The notes beneath the pieces were generated by a model, which saw nothing but the letters and a program-made list of their open reading frames with translations, was not told where the DNA came from and ran no database searches. 32,537 bases of DNA from Hydrogenothermaceae bacterium. Lineage in GTDB: Bacteria > Aquificota > Aquificia > Aquificales > Hydrogenothermaceae. The position numbers and the translations under genes are program-made. Location of the stretch: positions 1-32,537 of the forward strand of contig WIAL01000023.1 in assembly GCA_015519975.1 (NCBI GenBank). The letters run 5' to 3'. Positions 13,000 through 27,248 of this stretch are shown in pieces. Position 1 is the first letter of the stretch, and each line of letters starts with the position of its first letter.

Positions 13000-14877
13000 A
13001 TGGGTTTTATAAGAATGGGAAACAATTCAGAAGACAACAATCCCTCGCAAAAACAAAAATCAAATACCACTACACAAAAAGATCCTACACAAATCCAAAA
13101 CTTTAGCGATGTGTTTAAAATCTCCTCAGAGCTTTTGGCAAAAACACAGGAAGGCCTCGCTGCAGTAGAAGAACTTAAAGGAACAATGGATCAAATAGCT
13201 GCTGCTGCGGAAGAAAGTGCCGGAGCAGCAGAAGAAAGTTTAAGTGCAGTAACAGAAATAAAACAAAACTCTAAATATCTCGAAAAAGATGCAGAGGAAA
13301 TAATAATATTAGCCCAGAGACTTGAAGAGATTTTAACAATAGCGTCAGAAAATATAGAAGAATCAAGTATAGGAATGAGAAAAACTTCAGATACAGCTGT
13401 AAAAATAGCGAAAAAAGGAGAAGAACTTTTTGAAGCTTCAAAAAACATAACAGATGCAGTTAACTTAATAACTAAACTTGCTAAAAAAACATCTTTACTT
13501 GCCCTTAATGCAGCGATAGAAGCAGCAAGAGCCGAAGAAAAAGGAAAAAGCTTTACAGTTATGGCATCTGAAATAAGGTCTATGGCATCTAAATCAAGTA
13601 ACTATGCCCAGAAGATTAAAGAAATTGTAAGTATAATACAGAACAAAATACAAAACATCAAAGAAGCCATTTTAAAAATAAAAACAGATATGGAAAAAGC
13701 TGCAGATGATGCATCTGTAGTATCGGATAAAATGAAAAATATTGTAACTTTAATGGAAAAATATATAGAAAGTATAGAAAATCTATTAAGAATAATAAAC
13801 AAAGTAGTAATTGAAGTTGAAATTTTACACCAGGGATCAGAGACAATTGCAGCAGCAGCAGAAGAAAGTGCAAGTGCTGTAGCCGAAGTGGCAAATACTA
13901 TCGGAATGCAGGTTCAGGCCTTTTCTCAATCTGAAGAAGCAGCAAAAATGTTAAAAAATTTGGCTTCTAAAATAGATTCATCCCAAAATTCATCTATTGC
14001 TACAGAACTAGCAGCAGCATCTGAAGAATTAGCCAGTTCAATAGAAGAATTAGAACAATCTATGCAGCAGGTTGTAGAAGCATTGGAACAAATTGAACAG
14101 GCTGCAGAAATACAGAAAAATGACTCAACAAAAAATGAAGAAGTTGCAGAAAAATGTGTTGAATATATACATCAGGCCAGAGATATAGTAAGAAAAATGG
14201 CTGAGGATATAAATTCTATCAATAAAGAATTTAATGAAATATTCCATCTCCTTAAAGAACTTAAAGTTCTAGCAGGTGAAAATTCAAAACTTGCTGAAAG
14301 TAAAAAAATAGATCTGAATTTTGTTAAATCTAAAATAAATTCCCTGAATAATACGATAAGAAAAATAGAACTTGCTATTGTTCAAGTAGCAGCTTTATCT
14401 ATAAACGGTGCTGTTGAAGCAATAAGGATAGGAGAACTAGGATCAGGATTTAGTGAAGTTTCCAATGATATAAGGGATCTTGCAGTTACTTCTGAAGAAA
14501 ATCTGGATAAAGTTGTTGAGATCATAGATAAAGTACAGGAAGAAAATGACATAATCCTTGTTGAAATAAATAACATAGTGCTGACTCAAGAAAGAGAAAA
14601 TGAAAAACTTCAAAAACTAGAATACGAACTTAAACGAAACAAGGAAAATATAGAAAATGTTAAAGAAAAAGTTGATAAGTTTTTAACATCTGTTGAAGAA
14701 ATGAGCACAGCTTTAGAACAATCTAAAATAGCAGCCCAGCAGATAAAAGAAGCAGCTGAACTTTCTTTCCAGAATGCTACCCAGTCAAAAGAAGCAGCAA
14801 ATATTATTCTGGGGATAACAAAAGATATGAAGTTTTATATAAACAGACTATCTGAACTTGCTGCGAATCTTGTTTAA
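13000..14877 (+). CDS. Soluble methyl-accepting chemotaxis protein with two tandem signalling hairpins
   Basis: The 625-residue protein has no membrane segment and no recognised sensor domain. A Gln/Asn/Thr-rich disordered N-terminus (about 1-35) leads into a continuous coiled coil. Hairpin 1 has its tip at about 157-200 (TSLLALNAAIEAARAEEKGK). Flanking arms carry methylation-type motifs AAAAEESAGAAEES (67-80) and AAAAEESASAV (284-294). Hairpin 2 follows with a diverged tip at about 460-500 (AALSINGAVEAIRIGELGSG), keeping Glu473, Arg476 and IRDLA. The two tips are about 298 residues apart. Cytoplasmic receptors such as FrzCD are a partial parallel. It is first in the operon, so it should be the main input. 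The ligand or partner is unknown. Confidence 0.9.
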   Translation: MGFIRMGNNSEDNNPSQKQKSNTTTQKDPTQIQNFSDVFKISSELLAKTQEGLAAVEELKGTMDQIAAAAEESAGAAEESLSAVTEIKQNSKYLEKDAEEIIILAQRLEEILTIASENIEESSIGMRKTSDTAVKIAKKGEELFEASKNITDAVNLITKLAKKTSLLALNAAIEAARAEEKGKSFTVMASEIRSMASKSSNYAQKIKEIVSIIQNKIQNIKEAILKIKTDMEKAADDASVVSDKMKNIVTLMEKYIESIENLLRIINKVVIEVEILHQGSETIAAAAEESASAVAEVANTIGMQVQAFSQSEEAAKMLKNLASKIDSSQNSSIATELAAASEELASSIEELEQSMQQVVEALEQIEQAAEIQKNDSTKNEEVAEKCVEYIHQARDIVRKMAEDINSINKEFNEIFHLLKELKVLAGENSKLAESKKIDLNFVKSKINSLNNTIRKIELAIVQVAALSINGAVEAIRIGELGSGFSEVSNDIRDLAVTSEENLDKVVEIIDKVQEENDIILVEINNIVLTQERENEKLQKLEYELKRNKENIENVKEKVDKFLTSVEEMSTALEQSKIAAQQIKEAAELSFQNATQSKEAANIILGITKDMKFYINRLSELAANLV

Positions 14878-14891
14878 GAGGAGCATTTATC

Positions 14892-16289
14892 ATGAAAATA
14901 AATCTCCTGGAATTTAAAATAAAAGATCATCTTTTTGGTATACAGACTAAATATATAAAAAATATATTTGATGTGGATAACATAAAAAAGGCTCCTCTAA
15001 TGCCAGAGTATGTAATAGGATTTACATCCCACGGTAAAGATATATATATTCTCATATGTATCCAAAGTTTACTTGGTCTGTCTAAGGATAAATGTTCACA
15101 GTTTTTAGGTAAAACAGCAATTACGATAGATATTAAAGGAAAACTTTATTCCATTTTAGTAGACGAAATTGTAAAAATACAGGAAATAGAAAAAACAGGT
15201 TCAGATGATGATATTATAAATTTCTATAAAGAACAGGATACAGTTCTTGAAGAAATTACACCTGAATTTTTATCAAAAGTAATAAAAATACCTGCTCTTA
15301 CACACAACTTAGCAAAAAGTAGATCTGTTGAAAACAATGAAAATTATAAAGAACATCAAAAGTCAAAAAGGAAAGAAAAAAATTACCTTATCTTTAACCT
15401 TGACGATAAGCTATTTGCCGTTGAAACAAACTTTGTTAAAAAAGTAGAAACTTTAGAAGGTAAAGAAAAAGTACCTTTAAATGAAAAAGACTGGATAGAT
15501 GGTGTATATATAATAAAAGATACAGCTGTAAAAATAGGTAGCTTTAAAAAGCTTCTAAACATTTCTGGAGAAAATCCACAAACAGTTATACTAATTGAAA
15601 AAGATAAAAAAATCTTTGGAATTGCAGTAGATAGTATTGTTGATATCTATCCAATGGAAGAATCAAATCTTAATAAAAATATAAATAAGGACAGCTTATT
15701 TTCAGGATTTTTTATATATAAAAATAAAACTGTTCCTGTTTTATCTGAAAAGTTTTTAAATGATGCATTTGAAAAATATTCTGTTGAGAGAGCTCTTAAG
15801 GAAGAAACAACTGTAGACAAAAAATCTATACAAAATATGCTTCTGGTAAACATATTAGGTGAAAATTTTGCCCTACCGATGAATAGTTTAGATGAAGTGG
15901 TTGAAATAGATGATCTACATATTTCAACTTACCCATCAGAAAACCCCTACATAAAAGGGTTAGCAACCCGTAAAAGTAATTCATTTTTTGTTTTTTCTTT
16001 AGAACCTTTATTTAAAAAAGAAATGGATCTTTCAAATGAAAACTCAAAAGCACTGGTTATAAAAAAAGATGATAAAAAAACTGCAGTTTTAGTGTCAGAT
16101 ATAGAAGATATTATTTCTCTACCTGAGGAAGAAATAACTTTATTTGAAAACGGTGATCTTTTAATAAAGGGAGCTATTAGAGTAAAAGATGAGATAATTG
16201 ATATTATGAATGTGGAGTGGTTTTTTAAATCCAGTAATGAAAAAGGGATAAATAATGCTAATACCAATAGAGAAACTGAAGAGACTTAG
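14892..16289 (+). CDS. Triple CheW-domain scaffold protein
   Basis: CheW couples receptor tips to the CheA kinase. This 465-residue protein appears to hold three CheW-like domains in a row. The first is about residues 1-110 (LLEFKIKDHLFGIQTKYIK ... ITIDIKGKLYSILVDEI). The second is about 163-295 (LIFNLDDKLFAVETNFV ... KKIFGIAVDSIVDI). The third is about 312-448 (LLVNILGENFALPMNSLDEV ... KKTAVLVSDIEDI). A charged linker at about 140-160 separates the first two. Typical CheW is about 150-170 residues, so the length fits triplication. The domains have diverged from each other. AGGAG precedes the start, and the 3' end overlaps cheR by 35 bases. Confidence 0.85.
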   Translation: MKINLLEFKIKDHLFGIQTKYIKNIFDVDNIKKAPLMPEYVIGFTSHGKDIYILICIQSLLGLSKDKCSQFLGKTAITIDIKGKLYSILVDEIVKIQEIEKTGSDDDIINFYKEQDTVLEEITPEFLSKVIKIPALTHNLAKSRSVENNENYKEHQKSKRKEKNYLIFNLDDKLFAVETNFVKKVETLEGKEKVPLNEKDWIDGVYIIKDTAVKIGSFKKLLNISGENPQTVILIEKDKKIFGIAVDSIVDIYPMEESNLNKNINKDSLFSGFFIYKNKTVPVLSEKFLNDAFEKYSVERALKEETTVDKKSIQNMLLVNILGENFALPMNSLDEVVEIDDLHISTYPSENPYIKGLATRKSNSFFVFSLEPLFKKEMDLSNENSKALVIKKDDKKTAVLVSDIEDIISLPEEEITLFENGDLLIKGAIRVKDEIIDIMNVEWFFKSSNEKGINNANTNRETEET

Positions 16290-17082
16290 AGATTTTATAA
16301 ACAGTAAATTTGGCATTTTTATAGAAGATTTTAAATTAGATAGCATTTATAAAAGAAAATTTGAAAAATTAATGGAAAAGCACGGCTACACTTCTTTTGA
16401 AAATTTTTATAACGACATTATTTTCCGTAAAAATAGTAAACTACACGATGATTTTCTTAACAGTATAACTGTAAATGAAACCTACTTTTTTAGAGAAGAG
16501 TATCAATTTAAAACCCTTATAAATTATGTTTTACTGGAGCTACATTCTCGGAAACCCAGCAATCTACCGATAAATATATTAAGTGCACCTTGTTCTACAG
16601 GTGAAGAAGTTTATAGCATTGCAATTTATATAATGGAAGAAGGCAAAATTATTAACGAAAGAGATATTATGCTTCTTGGTATAGATATAGATAAAGATGC
16701 AATAGAAAAAGCTAAGACAGGCTTATATTCAGAAAGAAGCGTACATAAGATCCCACCTCATATTTTAAATAAATATTTTAGGAAAGTTGGGAAGTACTAT
16801 CAGGTAATTGACACTCTGAGGCAGGCTGTTAATTTTCGCGTTGTCAATGTGCTTGACAGATATGCAATGAAAAAACTTGGAAAGTTTGATGTCATATTTT
16901 CCAGGAACATGCTTATATATTTTGACGATCATAATAAAAGAGAAACAATTTCTATTTTTTATAATATCTTAAATCCAGGAGGATATCTATTTTTAGGGCA
17001 TGCAGAAAAAATACCTTCAGAAATAAAACTTTTTAAACAAATAAAAATAGGAGATATATTCGTATACAGGAAAGATGAATAA
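16255..17082 (+). CDS. cheR: Chemotaxis protein methyltransferase CheR
   Basis: CheR uses S-adenosylmethionine to methylate glutamates on MCP coiled coils. The 275-residue protein matches the family along its length. It has the helical N-terminal domain (1-65), then SITVNETYFFRE (70-81), the SAM-binding LSAPCSTGEEVYSIA (109-123), GIDIDKDAIEKAKTGLYSER, and VIFSRNMLIYFDD (213-225). LNPGGYLFLGHAEKI completes the fold. No C-terminal pentapeptide-binding or TPR extension is present. The start lies inside the end of the triple-CheW gene, indicating coupled translation. The substrate is presumably the double-hairpin receptor encoded upstream. Confidence 0.95.
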   Translation: MLIPIEKLKRLRDFINSKFGIFIEDFKLDSIYKRKFEKLMEKHGYTSFENFYNDIIFRKNSKLHDDFLNSITVNETYFFREEYQFKTLINYVLLELHSRKPSNLPINILSAPCSTGEEVYSIAIYIMEEGKIINERDIMLLGIDIDKDAIEKAKTGLYSERSVHKIPPHILNKYFRKVGKYYQVIDTLRQAVNFRVVNVLDRYAMKKLGKFDVIFSRNMLIYFDDHNKRETISIFYNILNPGGYLFLGHAEKIPSEIKLFKQIKIGDIFVYRKDE

Positions 17083-19555
17083 AATGGATAAAGAAAAACT
17101 TTTAAATATGTGTGTTAAAAATCCTCTTTTTTTAAGAGGAAAAGTTGCGACATTTACTTTAGAAAATAAATACGGTTTTCCGTTGGAAGAATGTTCTTTA
17201 TCTTTTAAAGAAATTCTAAAAGATGAGAGCCCAAAAGGCAAAAAGTTTATTGATTATTTTTATAAAAGTGATAAAAAAGGTTTTTTAACACTGGTAAATG
17301 ATTTTAGAAGTAAGCTTTTGGACCACTGGGAGTTTCCAATTATTAGATTAAAAACTTTAGATGGAAATATCATATATAGTGAAGTACATATTGTACCTAT
17401 TTACGAAGGAAAAAAAATAGTAAAGTTTTTAGGATATCTTATAGATATAACTCCTGAATTTGAAGAAAGAAAACTTCTTATCAAAATGTCACAGCTTGCT
17501 CCTGTAGGGGTTCTTATGCTTAAAGATAATAAAGTTATTTTTTACAATAAAAAACTTCTGGAACTTACAGGCTTAGATGATAATGAAATTAAAAATTTTC
17601 AAATTTTGCTGTCTTCAGTACATCCGGAAGATAGAGATAATTTCATTAAACAACTTGAAAATAAAGATGAAATTGCAAAAATAAGATTTTTGAAAAAAAA
17701 TAGAAAAATAAAATGGCTTCAGGTCCTGTCCAGCAAAATAAATTATAAAAACGATACTTATACAGTATTAATTATTGAAGACATAACTAAGTTGGTAAAA
17801 ATAGAAGGTCTAAAAGATCTACTCTATCATGTTAACAAAATTATTATTACATCTAATTCTCATAAAGAAATATTTAACAAAATCTGCGATTATTTGCCTA
17901 AATTGCCTTTTATAAAAGCTGGCTTTGCAATTTTAGAAGAAAAAAAGTTAACTAAAAGTAAGTGTAAGTATAACCTCAATGAGGAGGAAATCGGTGTATT
18001 TATTAAAAATTTAGATAAATTTAGGAATAGCAAGAATAATATTCTTTACATCAAAGATATAAACACTCACCTAATTTCTGAAGATATAAGGACATTACTT
18101 AAAGAAAAATATCTGAATTCATTTGCTATTTTACCTATAAAGCATAAAGACTTAAATTACTACATATTTCTATTTTTTGAAGAAAGTAGATTCCTTGAAA
18201 ATAAAAATGAATTAGAGATATTAAAAGAAGTAAAAGACGATATAAAATTTGCACTTAAACACATAGACCAGCAAAAAAGGCTGTTTATAAAACAGTATTA
18301 TGATGAAGTAACTGGTCTTGGAAACAGAAACTTTTTCTTAGAGTATTTAAACAAAATAAAACAAGAAAAAAAGAAATTTATTGTTGCTTTCATTGATATT
18401 TACCATTTTAAATATTTAAATGAAAAATACGGTCGTGATTTTGGAGATAAAGTTTTAAGATATATAGGAAAAAATCTTGATAAAGAACTAATGGAAGAGG
18501 ATATTTTTCGTGTAGGTTTTGATGAATTTGCAGTAGTGTCTACAGATAAGGATGAGTATTTTATACTTGATAAAGTTAAACAGGTATTTAAAAATATACA
18601 AATTGATGGAATCCATCTTGATCTTGACTTTAATATGGCATTAATACGATATCCAGATGATGAAACAAACATAGATAAACTTGTAGTAAAACTTGAAAGA
18701 ATGCTTGAAATGGCCCGCAGGAAAGGAAAAGGTGCTGTTGAGATGTTTTCTGAGCATCAATATAAAGAAGTTCACCAAATAATAGAAATAGAAGAGAATC
18801 TTGAAAAAGCTATATTGAATAACCAGCTAAAAATATTTTTACAGCCTATAGTAAATGTACAAAGTAATAGTATTTATGGAGCTGAAGCCCTAATAAGATG
18901 GGTCAAAGAAGATGGAAAGATTATATCTCCTAAAGATTTCATTCCTGTTGCAGAAAGAACAGGGCAGATAAAAGAAATTGATTTATGTATGCTTTTGAAA
19001 GCAAAAGAAGTCGTTGAAAAAGTTAAATATGAGTACGGAAAAGATATAAGTATATCTATTAACCTTACACCGGCTCACATAAAATATATCATTGAGTTTT
19101 TTGAAGGGAAAAATATACCAAAATGCAAAATTGGAACCGATTTTGATTTTTCAAATGTAAAAAATAAATTAGCCTTTGAACTTACAGAAAGACAGTCCAC
19201 GGAAGTATATGAAAGTCGTAAATATCTTAAAAAACTTAAAAAGCTTGGTTTTAAAATCTCTATAGATGATTTTGGAACAGGATACTCTTCATTAAGTTAT
19301 CTTGTAAATCTTGATGTAGATTATATTAAAATAGATATGGAATTTGTACAGAAAATGCTAAAAGATAAAAAAATATATAAACTGGTTCATTCTATAATAG
19401 ATATAGCGCATATTTTTGGACTTAAAACAGTTGCAGAAGGTGTGGAAACAAAAGAGCAGTTAAAAGAGTTAGAAAAATTAAAGTGCGACTATTATCAAGG
19501 ATATCTATTTAGTCCACCGATTCCTGTAGAAGAGTTTCTAAATTTACTAAAATAA
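17075..19555 (+). CDS. PAS-PAS-GAF-GGDEF-EAL protein, probable c-di-GMP phosphodiesterase
   Basis: Domains in the 826-residue protein, by recognition: PAS-like (about 25-125, weak), PAS (137-240, VLMLKDNKVIFYNKKLLELTG), GAF-like (245-395, weak), GGDEF (405-560) and EAL (570-826). The GGDEF signature reads GFDEF (481-485), and the metal-loop phrase DIDHF is DIYHF (441-445), so cyclase activity is doubtful. The EAL site looks complete: Glu604 in EAL, Asn663, Glu702 in ELTE, Asp731/732 in DDFGTGYSS, Lys752, Glu788 in AEGVET, and Gln808. The predicted activity is hydrolysis of c-di-GMP to pGpG, controlled by the sensory modules. No membrane segments. It overlaps cheR by eight bases and lies between cheR and cheB. 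Confidence 0.88.
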   Translation: MNKMDKEKLLNMCVKNPLFLRGKVATFTLENKYGFPLEECSLSFKEILKDESPKGKKFIDYFYKSDKKGFLTLVNDFRSKLLDHWEFPIIRLKTLDGNIIYSEVHIVPIYEGKKIVKFLGYLIDITPEFEERKLLIKMSQLAPVGVLMLKDNKVIFYNKKLLELTGLDDNEIKNFQILLSSVHPEDRDNFIKQLENKDEIAKIRFLKKNRKIKWLQVLSSKINYKNDTYTVLIIEDITKLVKIEGLKDLLYHVNKIIITSNSHKEIFNKICDYLPKLPFIKAGFAILEEKKLTKSKCKYNLNEEEIGVFIKNLDKFRNSKNNILYIKDINTHLISEDIRTLLKEKYLNSFAILPIKHKDLNYYIFLFFEESRFLENKNELEILKEVKDDIKFALKHIDQQKRLFIKQYYDEVTGLGNRNFFLEYLNKIKQEKKKFIVAFIDIYHFKYLNEKYGRDFGDKVLRYIGKNLDKELMEEDIFRVGFDEFAVVSTDKDEYFILDKVKQVFKNIQIDGIHLDLDFNMALIRYPDDETNIDKLVVKLERMLEMARRKGKGAVEMFSEHQYKEVHQIIEIEENLEKAILNNQLKIFLQPIVNVQSNSIYGAEALIRWVKEDGKIISPKDFIPVAERTGQIKEIDLCMLLKAKEVVEKVKYEYGKDISISINLTPAHIKYIIEFFEGKNIPKCKIGTDFDFSNVKNKLAFELTERQSTEVYESRKYLKKLKKLGFKISIDDFGTGYSSLSYLVNLDVDYIKIDMEFVQKMLKDKKIYKLVHSIIDIAHIFGLKTVAEGVETKEQLKELEKLKCDYYQGYLFSPPIPVEEFLNLLK

Positions 19556-19573
19556 AAATCATAAAGGAAAAAA

Positions 19574-20665
19574 ATGAGAAGAAAAAAAGTTTTAATAATC
19601 GATGATTCTGCACTTGTTAGAAGAATTTTAAAAAAGTTTTTAGAAGATCTTGGTCTTGAAGTTGATACTGCAAAAGACGGAGAGGAAGGTATAAAAAAAG
19701 CTCTTGAAAATGACTACGACATAATAACTGTAGATATTGAAATGCCTAAAAAAGGAGGGCTTGATGTAATCAAAGAAATAATGGACAAAAAACCAACCAG
19801 AATTCTCGTCATAAGTGCATATTCAACTGAAGATGCAGAGGTAACGTTGAAAGCTCTTGATTTGGGAGCCCTCGGTTATATTACAAAACCCGGAACACTT
19901 GGAGCAACCCTTCAACAGATAGAAAAAGAGATTAAAGAAAAGATTAAAGAAATCCTTGATGTACCAAAATTTAAAATCTTAATGAATAAAAATAAAGCTT
20001 TAAAATTAAAACAGGACTTTGACAAACTTGATAATTTAAAAATAGAAAATTTTCAGGCAAAAGATGACCTTAAATATGTGCTTATCGGGGCTTCCACAGG
20101 AGGTCCAAGACTAATTGAAACTATCGTAAAAGTATTACCTGAAAACTATCCTTATTCGTTATGCGTTGTTCAACATATGCCTGTAAATTTCACAAAAAAG
20201 TTTGCTGAAAGGCTTGACAGCATAAGTAAACTAAAAGTTGTGGAAGCATCCAACGGAGAAGAAGTTGTTACGGGAAAAGTTATTATAGGAAAAGGAGGCT
20301 GGCATTTACATTTTGCAAGACGCTCTTCAGATAATATGGTAATATGCAAGTTAGCACCAAATACTGCAAAAAGATTTTTTGTCCCTTCTGTGGATGAGAT
20401 GTTTTTTTCTGCTCTTGAAGTTATGAATCCTAAAAACATAATGGCTGTATTGCTTACAGGTATAGGAGATGATGGTGCAGATGGGATGGTTGCATTGAAA
20501 AAAGCAGGAGCGTATACTATTGCTGAGTCAGAAGAAACTGCTATAGTATATGGTATGCCAAAAGAAGCTTATCTTAGAGGTGGTGCAGTGAAAGTACTGC
20601 CGTTTCCAAAAATTGTTGAAGAAATTTTAAAATTCGGGGCTAAAGATGGGGTTCACAGAGTTTAA
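19574..20665 (+). CDS. cheB: CheB, receiver-controlled receptor methylesterase/deamidase
   Basis: CheB removes receptor methyl groups, reversing CheR, and is activated by phosphorylation. The 363-residue protein has an N-terminal receiver domain (1-125) with acidic pair Asp10/Asp11, phospho-acceptor Asp54 in TVDIEMP, Ser81 and Lys105. A linker (130-163) leads to the esterase domain with catalytic triad Ser174 in GASTGG, His201 in VVQHMP, and Asp300 in TGIGDDGADGM. All key residues are present, so both halves should be active. Phosphorylation needs a CheA kinase, which is not encoded in the window. AAGGAAA precedes the start. Confidence 0.96.
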   Translation: MRRKKVLIIDDSALVRRILKKFLEDLGLEVDTAKDGEEGIKKALENDYDIITVDIEMPKKGGLDVIKEIMDKKPTRILVISAYSTEDAEVTLKALDLGALGYITKPGTLGATLQQIEKEIKEKIKEILDVPKFKILMNKNKALKLKQDFDKLDNLKIENFQAKDDLKYVLIGASTGGPRLIETIVKVLPENYPYSLCVVQHMPVNFTKKFAERLDSISKLKVVEASNGEEVVTGKVIIGKGGWHLHFARRSSDNMVICKLAPNTAKRFFVPSVDEMFFSALEVMNPKNIMAVLLTGIGDDGADGMVALKKAGAYTIAESEETAIVYGMPKEAYLRGGAVKVLPFPKIVEEILKFGAKDGVHRV

Positions 20666-21257
20666 AGAAAATAAACCTGTAAGATTTAAAGAGTTTGATG
20701 AAGCTAGAGTGTATATTGAAAATATGTTTTTAAATAAAGAACTTACTTATGAAGCTGTAGATTATATGATAAAACACAAAGAATATTATTTTTTATTAAA
20801 GAATCTTATTAAACAATTTGCCAATTCACGGGAAGGAAACAGAGAACTTTTTGATTACATATTTTTAAGAATAGATGAATGCCCCAAAAGAAAAGAAGAT
20901 ATAGAGCTTTATAAGAAAATCATACACTCAAAAAATAAAGATCTAAAAGAATCTTTTTTAGAATTTGCAAAAAAATGTGCAGAAGAATTCAAAGAAATGG
21001 CAAAGAATTTTTTGGAAAGTGAAGATAAACTGGATAATTTCTTTGGATTTTGTATTTTAATTCATTTATACGATGATGAAGTAAAGAAAATTCTAGAAAA
21101 GTATATTTTAAACACATCAAATGAACAGCAAATTAAAGAGTTTCTTGACTATTTATACTTTTATGGAACAGAAGAAAACAAAGAATGCTTAAAACAAATT
21201 AGAGAAAGATATCCTAAATTTCAGGAATATATAGACAATATCCTAAAATCAATATAA
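20646..21257 (+). CDS. All-helical protein of unknown function in the chemosensory operon
   Basis: I do not recognise this 203-residue protein. It is predicted to be almost entirely helical, acidic/basic-rich and cytoplasmic. Repeated helical units with hydrophobic spacing (YYFLLKNLIKQFANSREGNR; DNFFGFCILIHLYDDEVKK; EFLDYLYFYGTEENKECLKQ) recall HEAT/ARM-type repeat proteins used for protein binding. The start ATG lies 20 bases inside the end of cheB, implying tight co-expression. HEAT-like proteins accompany some other chemosensory operons, so an adaptor role is possible. This is inference only. Confidence 0.75.
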   Translation: MGFTEFKENKPVRFKEFDEARVYIENMFLNKELTYEAVDYMIKHKEYYFLLKNLIKQFANSREGNRELFDYIFLRIDECPKRKEDIELYKKIIHSKNKDLKESFLEFAKKCAEEFKEMAKNFLESEDKLDNFFGFCILIHLYDDEVKKILEKYILNTSNEQQIKEFLDYLYFYGTEENKECLKQIRERYPKFQEYIDNILKSI

Positions 21258-22499: not shown

Positions 22500-25400
22500 T
22501 TATTCAAAAATATACTTTTCCTGCGGAAGTAAGTTTGACAGCTGCTGTTTAAACTCATCATTTATATCAACATGGTAGTTTGAATGGGCAGCTATTTCAC
22601 ACCAGAATTTCCCATCTTCTCTTATTTCTAATATAACCTCTTTATTACCCTGAAACTTTTTACAGAGCTGTTTAATCTTTTCCGCTGTTCCATTTTCAAC
22701 ATCTTCTTTTGAAAGTATAAACCTTACGTATTTAACTTCTCTGTTTATATACTCTACAGGGATTATGTTATTTGCATTCATTGAAACTTCTTCCTGCTCT
22801 TCATTTATTTCTATACTTCCTTCTATAATCACAAGTTTATTTTCCTCAATAACTGAGCTGTCTTCTAAATTTTCAGGGAAAGCTCTAACATCCATTATTC
22901 CTGTCTCATCCTGAAGCTGGAAAATAGCCATTGTATTTCCACTTCTTGTTTTTTTCTTTTTAACGTTAGATATAACTCCGGCTACTTTAACCCTATCCCT
23001 TGATTTTCTAGTAATTAGAGAAGCTATTGGCAGAACTCTTCCTTTTAACTCTTTTTGGTATGCTTTTAAAGGATGACCTGATATGTAAAACCCTAAAACT
23101 TCTTTCTCGTAATCAAGCTTTTCCCTTTCTGTCAAAGGCGGAGCATCGTTATATGATAAAACAGCAGTTTTTGTTTCTTCTGGTTTCATCATTAAGCCTA
23201 ATAAGGAGTTTTGCCCTGAGAGCTTGCTTTGTCTCTGTTTTTGCCCTGAAGTTAAAGCTTTATCTATATTATGAAGCATAACACCTCTATCAACTTCTGT
23301 AAAATCAAAAGCTCCTGCTTTTATGAGTGCTTCAAGTACTCTTTTATTTAGATTTTTCGAGTCGAGTCTTTCTGCTATATCAAAAATATCGTGATATTCT
23401 CCATTTTTAATTCTTTCTTCTACTATAGCTTTTGCTGAAGATTCTCCAACATTTTTAATTCTTGCAAGTCCAAATCTTATTTTCCCTTTTTCTTCTATTG
23501 CAAACTCTGATAAAGATTTGTTTATGTGAGGTGGTAAAAGCTTAATGCCAAAATCTTTCATATCATTAAGAATGTTTAAAAATTTATCATCATTTTTTTC
23601 TGTTGTTAGTTTTACTGCGAAAAACTCTTCAGGATAGTAAGTTTTTATATAAGCAGTCCAGTAAGTTAAATATGCATAAGCTGTTGAATGGGACTTGTTA
23701 AATGAATATGAAGCAAATTTTTCAATGTCATCCCAGAGCTGGGATATTTTTTCCTTGCTGAATCCTTTTTCAACAGCACCGTTTATGAACCTATCTTTCA
23801 TTTTTGCCATAACATCGGCTTTTTTCTTACCTATAGCTTTACGGAGTGTATCTGCTTCTGCCATTGTAAATCCAGAGAGAATGTTAGCCATGAACATAAT
23901 TTGCTCTTGATAGACAATTAAACCGTAGGTTTCTTTTAAAACATCTTTAACCTCTTCAAACGGATACTCAACTTTTTTTCTGCCGTGTTTTCTTTCTATA
24001 TATTCATCAACCATTCCAGACATTAAAGGTCCAGGTCTAAAAAGTGCCAGAATAGCTATGATTTCATCAAATTTATCTGGTTTTAGTTTTGCAAGAAGGT
24101 TCTGCATTCCTTTACTTTCAAGCTGGAATACTCCAGTTGTTTTACCTGACTGAAGAAGTTTATAAACATTAGGATCATCAAATCCAAGCTCTAAAAAGTT
24201 AAGATCTACTCCGTGTCTTTCCTTGATAAGTTTTCTCATATAATCAAGTTCTGTAAGGGTTTTTAGCCCCAAAAAGTCCATTTTCACAAGCCCAAGCATC
24301 TCAAGGGTGCCCATGTCAAACTGGGTAGCTTTAGTTCCATCTTTATCAACATATACTGGAACATACTCATCAAGGGGTCCCGGAGCTATAACAATACCTG
24401 CTGCGTGAATACCTGTATGTCTTGCAGACCCTTCTAATTTCTTAGCCAAATCAAGGAGTTTTCTTACTCTTTCATCTGTTTCATATAGTTTTCTAAATTC
24501 AGGATTTGCTTCAAGGTTTTCTTCTATTGTTAATGTTGAGCCCTGCACCGGTCCAGGGAGAATCATTTTTGCGATTTTGTCTGCTTCAGAATATGGAAAA
24601 CCTAAAACTCTTGCCACATCCCTTATAACCATCTTAGATTTCATAAAGTTATAGGTAATTATTTGGGCAACAGCCTGTTCACCGTACTTGTTTCTCACAT
24701 ATTCAATAATTTTAGGTCTATTTTCCATACAAAAATCTATATCAATATCAGGCATTGAAATTCTGTCTGGATTTAAAAACCTCTCAAAAATAAGCCCGTG
24801 CTGTAATGGGTCAACATCAGTAATTCCGAGAGTGTAAGCAACTAAAGACCCTGCTGCAGAATTATGAATGGCAAAATTGTTAGCAACATAAGATGTATCT
24901 ATTGGAACAGTTATATCGTAAACTTCTCCTTTGTAATAAAGTTTTCTAACTTCTTTAATCTTTATGTATATATAGTCTTCATCTACGAAAAATGAGTCAT
25001 TTCTAAAGAATTTCTGGTTAGGTATGTGGATTTTGAAGTGTTTAAAATCATTATTCCAGTTTAAAAGTTGTTTTCCTGAAAGTTTTACAGAGTATTCTGT
25101 ATTCCAATTTTTATTACTTTTTTTTCTTTCTAATATCGAAGCGTAATATCCAAATCTTGCAAGTAAAAATTTAAGTTGAGAAGCTAAATTGTAAGATATA
25201 GTTGAATACTTTATTGATATATTTTTAGAAGATTTACCGTTGTGTCCATCTCCTCTAAACATATAAGCAATTAAAGTTTTTATATATTTATCTTTTCCGT
25301 ATTCAATTAAAATAGGATGTATTATTTTATTTTTAGCTCTTTTACCACATAGAGAAGTTAAAAACTCTCCAACAATTCTAGAATAAGTTATTACCTGTAA

Positions 25401-27248
25401 AGAATTTCTAGTTTTATGAAAAACAATTTTAGATTCAAGCTCAAATATTTTATTTAAAAGTTTTTGAACTTCTGATGCATAACTAATTTCATTTTTATGA
25501 AATACAAAACCTATTGCACTTTCTCTTTCATTTAGTCTAGCCCAACCTTCAGCAATATAATATCCAAGTAATTTTGCTAAATCTTCATCAAAAGGTATAA
25601 ATCTAGGGATTTTTTTTGTTTTTAATTTATTAGTGCCTATTTCATACCAAACATATTTTTCATCATATCTTAGATAATTTTTCTTATCTATAAATTCAAG
25701 AATATCAAAGATTATTTCCTTATTTTTTGATTTTACCCGCGGATATACCACAAAATCTCCTGATTTTAATTTTCCAGCTTCTATCCACTTTAGTTCATAT
25801 TTTTCAAAAGGTTTAGATGAGCAATATCTATTACAAGTGGGCTTACATATAACCGACACTGTTTTTTCACTTTTTACCACACATTTTTCTGAAACTATAG
25901 CCCAGACTTTATGGTCAGAGGTTAAAAACAGCTCGTCACTACCTACTTTTAATTTTACTATTTCTTCTTCTACATCGTATATAAACTTGTTAACAACAGG
26001 TAAAATTTTCCCTGTATGACTAATAACAAACTGTCCTATTTGTATATCTTTAATAGGAACTACAGAACCATCAGAGAGCAATACTTTAGTATTAGGTAAT
26101 ACACATCCCCTTCCGGGACCAACCGGAATACCGTTTTCTTTAGCGTGTTTTATAAAATCCTGAACTATAAGGAAATATTCAGGAAATCCCATCTGTTTAA
26201 TAACATCTATCTCGTATTTAAGTCTTTCTTTATATTCCTCATATTTTTCTTTTGGTAGATCTTTTATTTTCTCAAGTCTTTTTTCAAGCCCTTCCCATGC
26301 AAGTTTTTCAAAATACTGTGCTTTTTCTTCTTCTGTTGCTTCTCTATCAAGTCCCGGTATCTGGAATTTTGGGAAAAGATATCCTCTTGTATCTGCTGTT
26401 TCTATTTCTACATTGCATTTTTCAGCAATTTCCATTGTATTTTTTAAAGCAAATTCATAACCTTTAAATTTTTTGTACATCTCTTCAGGTCTTGTAAAGT
26501 GAAGACCTCTCACTTTAAAAGCTCTACCCTTTTCTTTTAGCTCTTTTAAAGTAAGTTTCATTTGAAGAGCTTTAATTACATCATGAGCTTCAGCATCTTC
26601 TTCATTTAGGTAATGAGAGTCATTTGTTGCAACAACTTTTACATCAAGCTTTTCTGCAAGTTCTAAGATTCCTTTATTTGCAATTTCCTGTTCTTCAAGT
26701 CCATTCATCTGAATTTCAAAATATAAATCTTCTCCAAATATATCTTTTAATCTTTTACCGTATTCATAAGCCTCATCAAACTTTCCTTTTGAGAGAAGGT
26801 GGGGGATAAAACCTTTTAAACAAGCAGTTTGGCAGATAAGACCTTCATGGTATTTTTCTAAAAGTTCCCAGTCTATTCTGGGTTTATAATAAAATCCCTC
26901 CGTATATGCTAGAGAAGAAAGTTTCATTAAGTTCTTAAATCCAGTTTTATCTTTTGCATGAAGGATTAAATGATAGTTTTTATCTGCTAATATGCTGTCG
27001 GAACCTTCTCCTTTCTTCTCAAATCTATTATTTGTAAAGTAGGCTTCCATTCCGATGATAGGTTTTACACCTACTTTTTTCATTTCCTGATAGAACTCAA
27101 TAGCACCGAAAATATTTCCGTGATCCGTTAGGGCTACTGCTTTGTATCCGTACTCTTTTGCTTTTTGCGCAAGTTCAGGTATTTTTATAGCACCGTCCAG
27201 TAATGAATAGTGGCTGTGTAGATGTAAATGTGTAAAATCCTTTGACAT
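22500..27248 (-). CDS. dnaE: DNA polymerase III alpha subunit (DnaE1 type) carrying an intein
   Basis: This is the replicative polymerase. The precursor has 1582 residues; removing the 415-residue intein leaves 1167, the normal DnaE1 size. The PHP domain opens with FTHLHLHSHYSLLDG and LTDHGNIFG. The palm active site has MPDIDIDF (Asp834, Asp836, Asp838 region), split from the preceding VGPGRG/SAAGSLVAY glycine-rich motif by the intein. Later parts include HTGIHAAGIVI, LVKMDFLGLKTLT, FNKSHSTAYA in the fingers, and an OB-fold (KVAGVISNVKKKKTRSGN) near the C-terminus. GGTGGAG precedes the start. The gene diverges from queH; its 3' end abuts the methyltransferase stop. Confidence 0.97.
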   Translation of the reverse strand: MSKDFTHLHLHSHYSLLDGAIKIPELAQKAKEYGYKAVALTDHGNIFGAIEFYQEMKKVGVKPIIGMEAYFTNNRFEKKGEGSDSILADKNYHLILHAKDKTGFKNLMKLSSLAYTEGFYYKPRIDWELLEKYHEGLICQTACLKGFIPHLLSKGKFDEAYEYGKRLKDIFGEDLYFEIQMNGLEEQEIANKGILELAEKLDVKVVATNDSHYLNEEDAEAHDVIKALQMKLTLKELKEKGRAFKVRGLHFTRPEEMYKKFKGYEFALKNTMEIAEKCNVEIETADTRGYLFPKFQIPGLDREATEEEKAQYFEKLAWEGLEKRLEKIKDLPKEKYEEYKERLKYEIDVIKQMGFPEYFLIVQDFIKHAKENGIPVGPGRGCVLPNTKVLLSDGSVVPIKDIQIGQFVISHTGKILPVVNKFIYDVEEEIVKLKVGSDELFLTSDHKVWAIVSEKCVVKSEKTVSVICKPTCNRYCSSKPFEKYELKWIEAGKLKSGDFVVYPRVKSKNKEIIFDILEFIDKKNYLRYDEKYVWYEIGTNKLKTKKIPRFIPFDEDLAKLLGYYIAEGWARLNERESAIGFVFHKNEISYASEVQKLLNKIFELESKIVFHKTRNSLQVITYSRIVGEFLTSLCGKRAKNKIIHPILIEYGKDKYIKTLIAYMFRGDGHNGKSSKNISIKYSTISYNLASQLKFLLARFGYYASILERKKSNKNWNTEYSVKLSGKQLLNWNNDFKHFKIHIPNQKFFRNDSFFVDEDYIYIKIKEVRKLYYKGEVYDITVPIDTSYVANNFAIHNSAAGSLVAYTLGITDVDPLQHGLIFERFLNPDRISMPDIDIDFCMENRPKIIEYVRNKYGEQAVAQIITYNFMKSKMVIRDVARVLGFPYSEADKIAKMILPGPVQGSTLTIEENLEANPEFRKLYETDERVRKLLDLAKKLEGSARHTGIHAAGIVIAPGPLDEYVPVYVDKDGTKATQFDMGTLEMLGLVKMDFLGLKTLTELDYMRKLIKERHGVDLNFLELGFDDPNVYKLLQSGKTTGVFQLESKGMQNLLAKLKPDKFDEIIAILALFRPGPLMSGMVDEYIERKHGRKKVEYPFEEVKDVLKETYGLIVYQEQIMFMANILSGFTMAEADTLRKAIGKKKADVMAKMKDRFINGAVEKGFSKEKISQLWDDIEKFASYSFNKSHSTAYAYLTYWTAYIKTYYPEEFFAVKLTTEKNDDKFLNILNDMKDFGIKLLPPHINKSLSEFAIEEKGKIRFGLARIKNVGESSAKAIVEERIKNGEYHDIFDIAERLDSKNLNKRVLEALIKAGAFDFTEVDRGVMLHNIDKALTSGQKQRQSKLSGQNSLLGLMMKPEETKTAVLSYNDAPPLTEREKLDYEKEVLGFYISGHPLKAYQKELKGRVLPIASLITRKSRDRVKVAGVISNVKKKKTRSGNTMAIFQLQDETGIMDVRAFPENLEDSSVIEENKLVIIEGSIEINEEQEEVSMNANNIIPVEYINREVKYVRFILSKEDVENGTAEKIKQLCKKFQGNKEVILEIREDGKFWCEIAAHSNYHVDINDEFKQQLSNLLPQEKYIFE
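24861..26105 (-). mobile_element. In-frame intein with LAGLIDADG homing endonuclease, within DnaE
   Basis: The intein spans precursor residues 382-796. Splice junctions are GPGRG|Cys1 and HN415|SAAGS, so Ser is the +1 residue. By intein position: block A CVLPNTKVLLSDGS (1-14); block B Thr62-Ser-Asp-His65; endonuclease motifs LLGYYIAEGW (179-188, acidic Glu186) and LIAYMFRGDGH (279-289, Asp286); block F GEVYDITVP (393-401); block G VANNFAIHN with His414-Asn415. All splicing residues are present and the frame is open, so self-splicing is expected. Two sampled rows inside it (25261-25320, 25441-25500) are about 18% G+C, against about 42% for 24301-24360 in the extein. This hints at separate ancestry. 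A Cys75-x11-Cys87-x3-Cys91-x3-Cys95 cluster sits between blocks B and C. Confidence 0.96.

Follow-up and report, generated by a model that had tools for sequence, protein, structure and literature searches.

The six genes at positions 13000-21257 of the window (the whole 32,537-nucleotide stretch of Hydrogenothermaceae DNA analysed here, contig C12 of a near-complete (99.97%) genome from the Aquificota) form what is, judged from its genes and their domains, a CheA-less ('partial') F9-type chemosensory operon. All six reading frames are open on the same strand, with spacings of +14, -35, -8, +18 and -20 bases, and Pfam recognises two MCPsignal stretches, three CheW domains, CheR, two PAS domains followed by GGDEF and EAL, and a receiver with a methylesterase (Table 1). 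The gene content and tight spacing given in an initial annotation of this DNA are borne out by these coordinates and matches. So are its pairing of a double-tip receptor with a triple CheW as one module, found here in adjacent genes (PF00015 twice, PF01584 three times), and its finding of adaptation enzymes without a kinase or response regulator: CheR and CheB are in the operon, and Pfam and profile searches find neither CheA nor CheY in the operon or the rest of the window. Pfam gives no match for the GAF domain that had been assigned to the EAL protein. A uracil-5-methyltransferase gene starts 15 bases past the last gene, a position not conserved in relatives. A promoter and terminator scan of the operon was uninformative, with promoter-like sites at or below the shuffle expectation.

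Table 1. Genes of the chemosensory operon, with positions in the window
Feature	Position	Strand	Basis
DosM-type soluble receptor, 625 aa	13000..14877	+	PF00015, two stretches; hydropathy maximum 1.45
CheW3, three CheW domains in one chain	14892..16289	+	PF01584, three stretches, 135.7 bits
CheR methyltransferase	16255..17082	+	PF01739; sole CheR of the genome
PAS-PAS-GGDEF-EAL protein	17075..19555	+	Pfam and alignment; orthologues track the operon in Hydrogenothermaceae
CheB, receiver and methylesterase	19574..20665	+	Pfam, phospho-site residues; sole CheB of the genome
HEAT-like helical-repeat protein	20646..21257	+	predicted fold and position after CheB, as for the HEAT protein in full F9 operons

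The signature proteins of the F9 class are DosM and CheW3 (PMC9321776). The window has both, as a cytoplasmic receptor with tandem signalling domains and an adjacent CheW3, and lacks the CheA and CheY found in the cluster of a full F9 system. Its composition (dosM, cheW3, cheB and cheR without cheA or cheY, and a single CheA encoded elsewhere) is that of the 'partial F9 class' reported from Nitratiruptor, Nautilia and others, in eight of 2781 complete genomes (PMC9321776). Thus, what was put forward initially as an undescribed system had already been published. The window is homologous to operons of F9 composition and shares a tree with them, one built without a V. cholerae sequence or class model. 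For the partial F9 group of Campylobacterota and Aquificota, PMC9321776 proposed a single origin and suggested cooperation with the CheA of another class.

The partial F9 operons of Nitratiruptor and Nautilia share with the window dosM, cheW3 and cheBR, the lack of cheA and cheY in the cluster, and a sole CheA that comes from another class. The window differs in its added GGDEF-EAL and HEAT-like genes, neither of which is named in the main text of PMC9321776; nor are distinguishing DosM or CheW3 residues reported in that paper, whereas our larger sample shows some. Full F9 operons, such as cluster I of V. cholerae (PMC7534058) and those of Aquificaceae, Thermodesulfovibrio and Proteobacteria, have in common with the window DosM, CheW3, CheB, a HEAT-like protein and CheR, and several have the same order as the Persephonella variant. 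Unlike the window, they encode CheA and CheY-like receivers in the operon, have a canonical tip 1 and a CheW3 near the CheW consensus, and usually have no EAL gene in the directon. According to the review PMC7534058, the F9 array of V. cholerae is cytoplasmic and double-layered, DosM is apparently essential, and arrays form without their own CheA, in reduced number.

The sole CheA of the genome is encoded on contig C41 in a flagellar cluster (cheZ-like, cheA, cheW, cheV, cheY, fliG and fliM) that has neither CheR nor CheB, and the only CheR and only CheB of the genome are those of the window. Given that these sole copies are at separate loci, the C41 cluster and the window operon are complementary. 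The whole-genome search thus confirms the suggestion, made at the outset, of a CheA encoded elsewhere, and this genome has no complete classical cluster equipped with a CheR and a CheB of its own. Conserved linkage of CheA to such operons, which the initial annotation had counted against its own proposal, does occur in Aquificaceae, Sulfurimonadaceae, Thermodesulfovibrio and many Proteobacteria. CheA is encoded elsewhere in every carrier genome examined except one that is 83% complete (14 of 14 in Campylobacterota), and none of the near-complete carriers examined lacks it, so a CheA partner in trans is always possible.

Such a partner is the basis of the hybrid array proposed for Nitratiruptor and Nautilia (PMC9321776), in which DosM and CheW3 would recruit the flagellar CheA into an ordinary kinase-controlling array and provide an intracellular input to flagellar chemotaxis. 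The single CheA in this genome, its presence in all Campylobacterota carriers, an intact CheB receiver and the published argument favour this arrangement, which we consider possible but on balance unlikely given the divergence of the receptor, CheW3 and CheB described below.

Flagellar clusters in relatives vary in their adaptation genes. A genome of the same genus (G065, 99% complete) has, at locus L089, a flagellar cluster with CheA, CheW, CheV, CheY and CheZ-like genes, and matches to CheR, CheB and MCP are all absent genome-wide. At three other loci (L090, L086 and L091), a second, flagellar-type CheR-CheB pair beside CheZ-CheA has apparently been lost stepwise; the pair is intact in G079, its CheB is broken in G083 and gone in G081.

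CheW3 orthologues occur, with DosM, in three Aquificota families. Hydrogenothermaceae operons are ordered either DosM-CheW3-CheR-EAL-CheB-HEAT, which is the arrangement of the window, or DosM-CheW3-CheB-HEAT-CheR-EAL; those of Desulfurobacteriaceae read DosM-CheW3-CheR, with CheB adjoining on the opposite strand, and the Aquificaceae order is DosM-CheW3-MCP-receiver-CheA-CheB-HEAT-CheR-receiver. Aquificaceae thus have CheA within the homologous operon. Scanning the collection with the second tip adds operons from Campylobacterota that lack CheA, and CheA-linked operons from Sulfurimonadaceae, Thermodesulfovibrio and many Proteobacteria. Several CheA-linked operons are ordered DosM-CheW3-CheB-HEAT-CheR-receiver-CheA, and by comparison the Persephonella variant has EAL in place of the receiver and CheA of the full operons. 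Gene labels in relatives come from phmmer comparison of mechanically called ORFs with window and Aquificaceae references, and are noisy at high-GC loci.

In a FastTree phylogeny of DosM and CheW3 from 57 operons, which is midpoint-rooted and so leaves the direction of change unshown, the 22 operons scored as CheA-less (the window's included) group with a Nautiliaceae operon cut by a contig end in a single clade (support 1.0). That the CheA-less operons are one clade across Aquificota and Campylobacterota is apparently new. It also means that the changes in the receptor tip and CheW3 described below may go back to a single inherited event and not to separate adaptations. A recent loss of CheA from the window's own genome was considered and rejected, because the CheA-less operons are an old clade.

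Some genomes of the same genus or family have no operon (G065) or have broken copies (an interrupted DosM without CheW3 in G067, only CheB and CheR in G080), as would be expected if the window operon were what is left of a full F9 operon in decay, with little or no function remaining. We regard this as very improbable, given that its six frames are open and tightly coupled with catalytic residues kept, that CheW3 orthologues in the family keep the gene set at 33-48% identity, and that the clade spans two phyla. In the same-genus genome G067 (L095 285-1923), DosM is split into two open frames, CheW3 is missing and CheR follows directly, the picture of a decaying operon. Five Persephonella-group loci (L080, L081, L082, L083 and L099) retain a CheB-HEAT-CheR trio, complete or incomplete, but neither DosM nor CheW3; at three or more of these loci, the flanking genes match in size those on either side of the entire partial F9 operon in relatives.

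The DosM of the window has signalling tips at about residues 173 and 472, and hydropathy and Pfam indicate neither a transmembrane segment nor a recognised sensory domain. A conserved Asn in tip 1 is replaced in 22 of 22 DosM proteins of the CheA-less clade (the window, which has Ser, not being counted) and in none of the 34 CheA-linked ones, and a Gly has become Ser in 17/22 versus 0/34; many of the relatives analysed are metagenome-assembled genomes, and members of a single clade do not count as independent events. A Val to Met change is also mostly seen near the lost Asn. The literature on receptor-tip residues that contact CheA offered nothing usable, and we do not claim the altered residues as contacts. 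Pfam scores of CheW3 fall into disjoint ranges, 91-160 bits in CheA-less operons (n=18) and 222-365 in CheA-linked operons (n=13, including two proteins with a fourth CheW stretch), whereas those of CheR overlap (148-200 and 164-200). The combination of altered DosM tip residues and a divergent CheW3 with an ordinary CheR is an apparently new characteristic of the CheA-less clade.

Both the DosM tips and CheW3 have moved away from residues that CheA-containing arrays conserve, and a DosM/CheW3 scaffold therefore probably does not include CheA as a regular component. The divergence lies precisely in the coupling parts, whereas canonical tips are retained in five of the genome's six other receptor-like genes, which argues against the hybrid array.

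DosM contains four strict consensus methylation motifs (shuffles give a mean of 0.1 to 0.3), two of which flank tip 1 almost symmetrically at -102 and +115, and none of the genome's six other receptor-like genes has the strict motif. That DosM alone among the receptors of its genome has consensus methylation sites appears not to have been noted before. Judged by sequence, DosM is the one obvious substrate of the CheR and CheB of the operon. We also considered that these enzymes serve the flagellar receptors. This is weakened because the other receptors lack the motif and several Hydrogenothermaceae genomes keep a flagellar CheA with neither CheR nor CheB. We retain it as a lesser candidate because the flagellar receptors of G079, in which CheR and CheB stand beside CheA, also lack the strict motif, so that a missing motif is no proof of missing methylation, and because some genomes keep CheB-CheR without DosM.

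The phospho-site of the window CheB receiver is intact (D10, D11, D54, S81 and K105), as it is in all Hydrogenothermaceae copies of the operon and all CheA-linked operons examined. It is degenerate in 4/4 Desulfurobacteriaceae, 3/3 Nautiliaceae and one Helicobacteraceae operon, and partly so in one Sulfurimonas. This difference between the window and several of its vent relatives, as read from aligned residues, appears to be new. Decay of the receiver in genomes that nearly all still encode CheA is a further point against the hybrid array. The intact receivers of Hydrogenothermaceae suggest that some kinase link persists there.

Our preferred interpretation, held tentatively and with a little less than even confidence, is that DosM and CheW3 build a scaffold in the cytoplasm that has a methylation circuit of its own, is connected to the flagellar CheA by CheB if not by more, and probably has c-di-GMP as its output. 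This scaffold would be double-layered, and its state would be set by CheR against CheB. The flagellar CheA could phosphorylate CheB in trans; given that the CheB receiver needs a phosphodonor and the only CheA is flagellar, phosphorylated CheB would be the likeliest wire from that kinase to the scaffold. The likeliest output, we suspect, is the PAS-PAS-GGDEF-EAL protein encoded in the operon itself, which would be under control of the scaffold.

A module fully independent of the kinase, in which methylation of the scaffold would by itself control the c-di-GMP enzyme and CheA would play no part, seems improbable to us. It would fit the finding that the CheB phospho-site was lost repeatedly within the CheA-less clade and never in the CheA-linked operons examined, the loss of tip residues kept by all CheA-linked DosM, and the dissimilar GGDEF-EAL genes that repeatedly neighbour CheA-less operons. 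However, the uniformly intact CheB receivers in the Hydrogenothermaceae copies examined are hard to explain without a phosphodonor.

The EAL domain of the window protein has the catalytic motifs EAL, N, E, DDFG, K, E and Q in alignment, and its GGDEF site is degenerate (GFDEF); the protein is a probable c-di-GMP phosphodiesterase. Among 41 Hydrogenothermaceae genomes, all nine operon carriers have an orthologue (full length in eight, cut by a contig end in one). Beyond the carriers it is full length in G066, a fragmented assembly with CheB-HEAT, and in G079, and G093 has a fragment near a CheR match. The genome of the window has 16 EAL matches, so a single neighbouring EAL gene could be due to chance; linkage across the family could not. 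That the GGDEF-EAL orthologue tracks the operon across Hydrogenothermaceae is apparently new, and it gives better support to the c-di-GMP output that the initial annotation considered and that we find plausible.

More widely, 11 of 22 loci of the CheA-less clade have a GGDEF-EAL gene in the directon of the operon, compared with 3 of 34 CheA-linked loci (Fisher p=0.001, kinship ignored); about half of the related CheA-less loci thus have no EAL gene in the directon. The enzymes of Desulfurobacteriaceae and Campylobacterota are 22-30% identical to that of the window and therefore look like separate recruitments. At L058 (12297-17148, minus strand), genes for an EAL protein and a protoglobin-PAS-GGDEF-EAL protein come before a Desulfurobacteriaceae partial F9 operon, which suggests an oxygen or gas input.

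Wsp-type (ACF class) systems control c-di-GMP through a CheA-like kinase of their own and a diguanylate cyclase that is phosphorylated. The window resembles them in the linkage of chemosensory parts to a c-di-GMP enzyme, but has no kinase in the operon, and its enzyme combines PAS domains with an EAL domain that looks active.

Textbooks treat the control of CheA as the purpose of a chemosensory array. The operon is a good place for testing whether an array works without its own kinase, and the role of F9 and partial F9 systems becomes directly testable with a stable clade in which receptor and CheW modules lack CheA, the coupling residues have drifted, the adaptation enzymes are intact and a c-di-GMP enzyme is linked. 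The clade across Aquificota and Campylobacterota might even have abandoned the kinase as a structural part and become a kinase-free methylation switch, wired in Hydrogenothermaceae to a c-di-GMP phosphodiesterase, although we think this unlikely.

The last gene of the operon has no significant Pfam match, for which reason its product was folded with AlphaFold. The model is a confident all-helical solenoid (pLDDT 91.5); its best PDB matches, to armadillo and alphaRep HEAT-like repeats, are without exception weak (E of 0.004 or worse). The homologous Aquificaceae operon has a true HEAT_2 protein between CheB and CheR, the place of the window gene after CheB. The earlier HEAT-like call is upheld by predicted fold and position, not by Pfam. 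Elsewhere in the window (22500-27248, minus strand), a gene for the DNA polymerase III alpha subunit contains an in-frame intein carrying a LAGLIDADG endonuclease domain, recognised by a Pfam LAGLIDADG_3 match and a sub-threshold Intein_splicing match.
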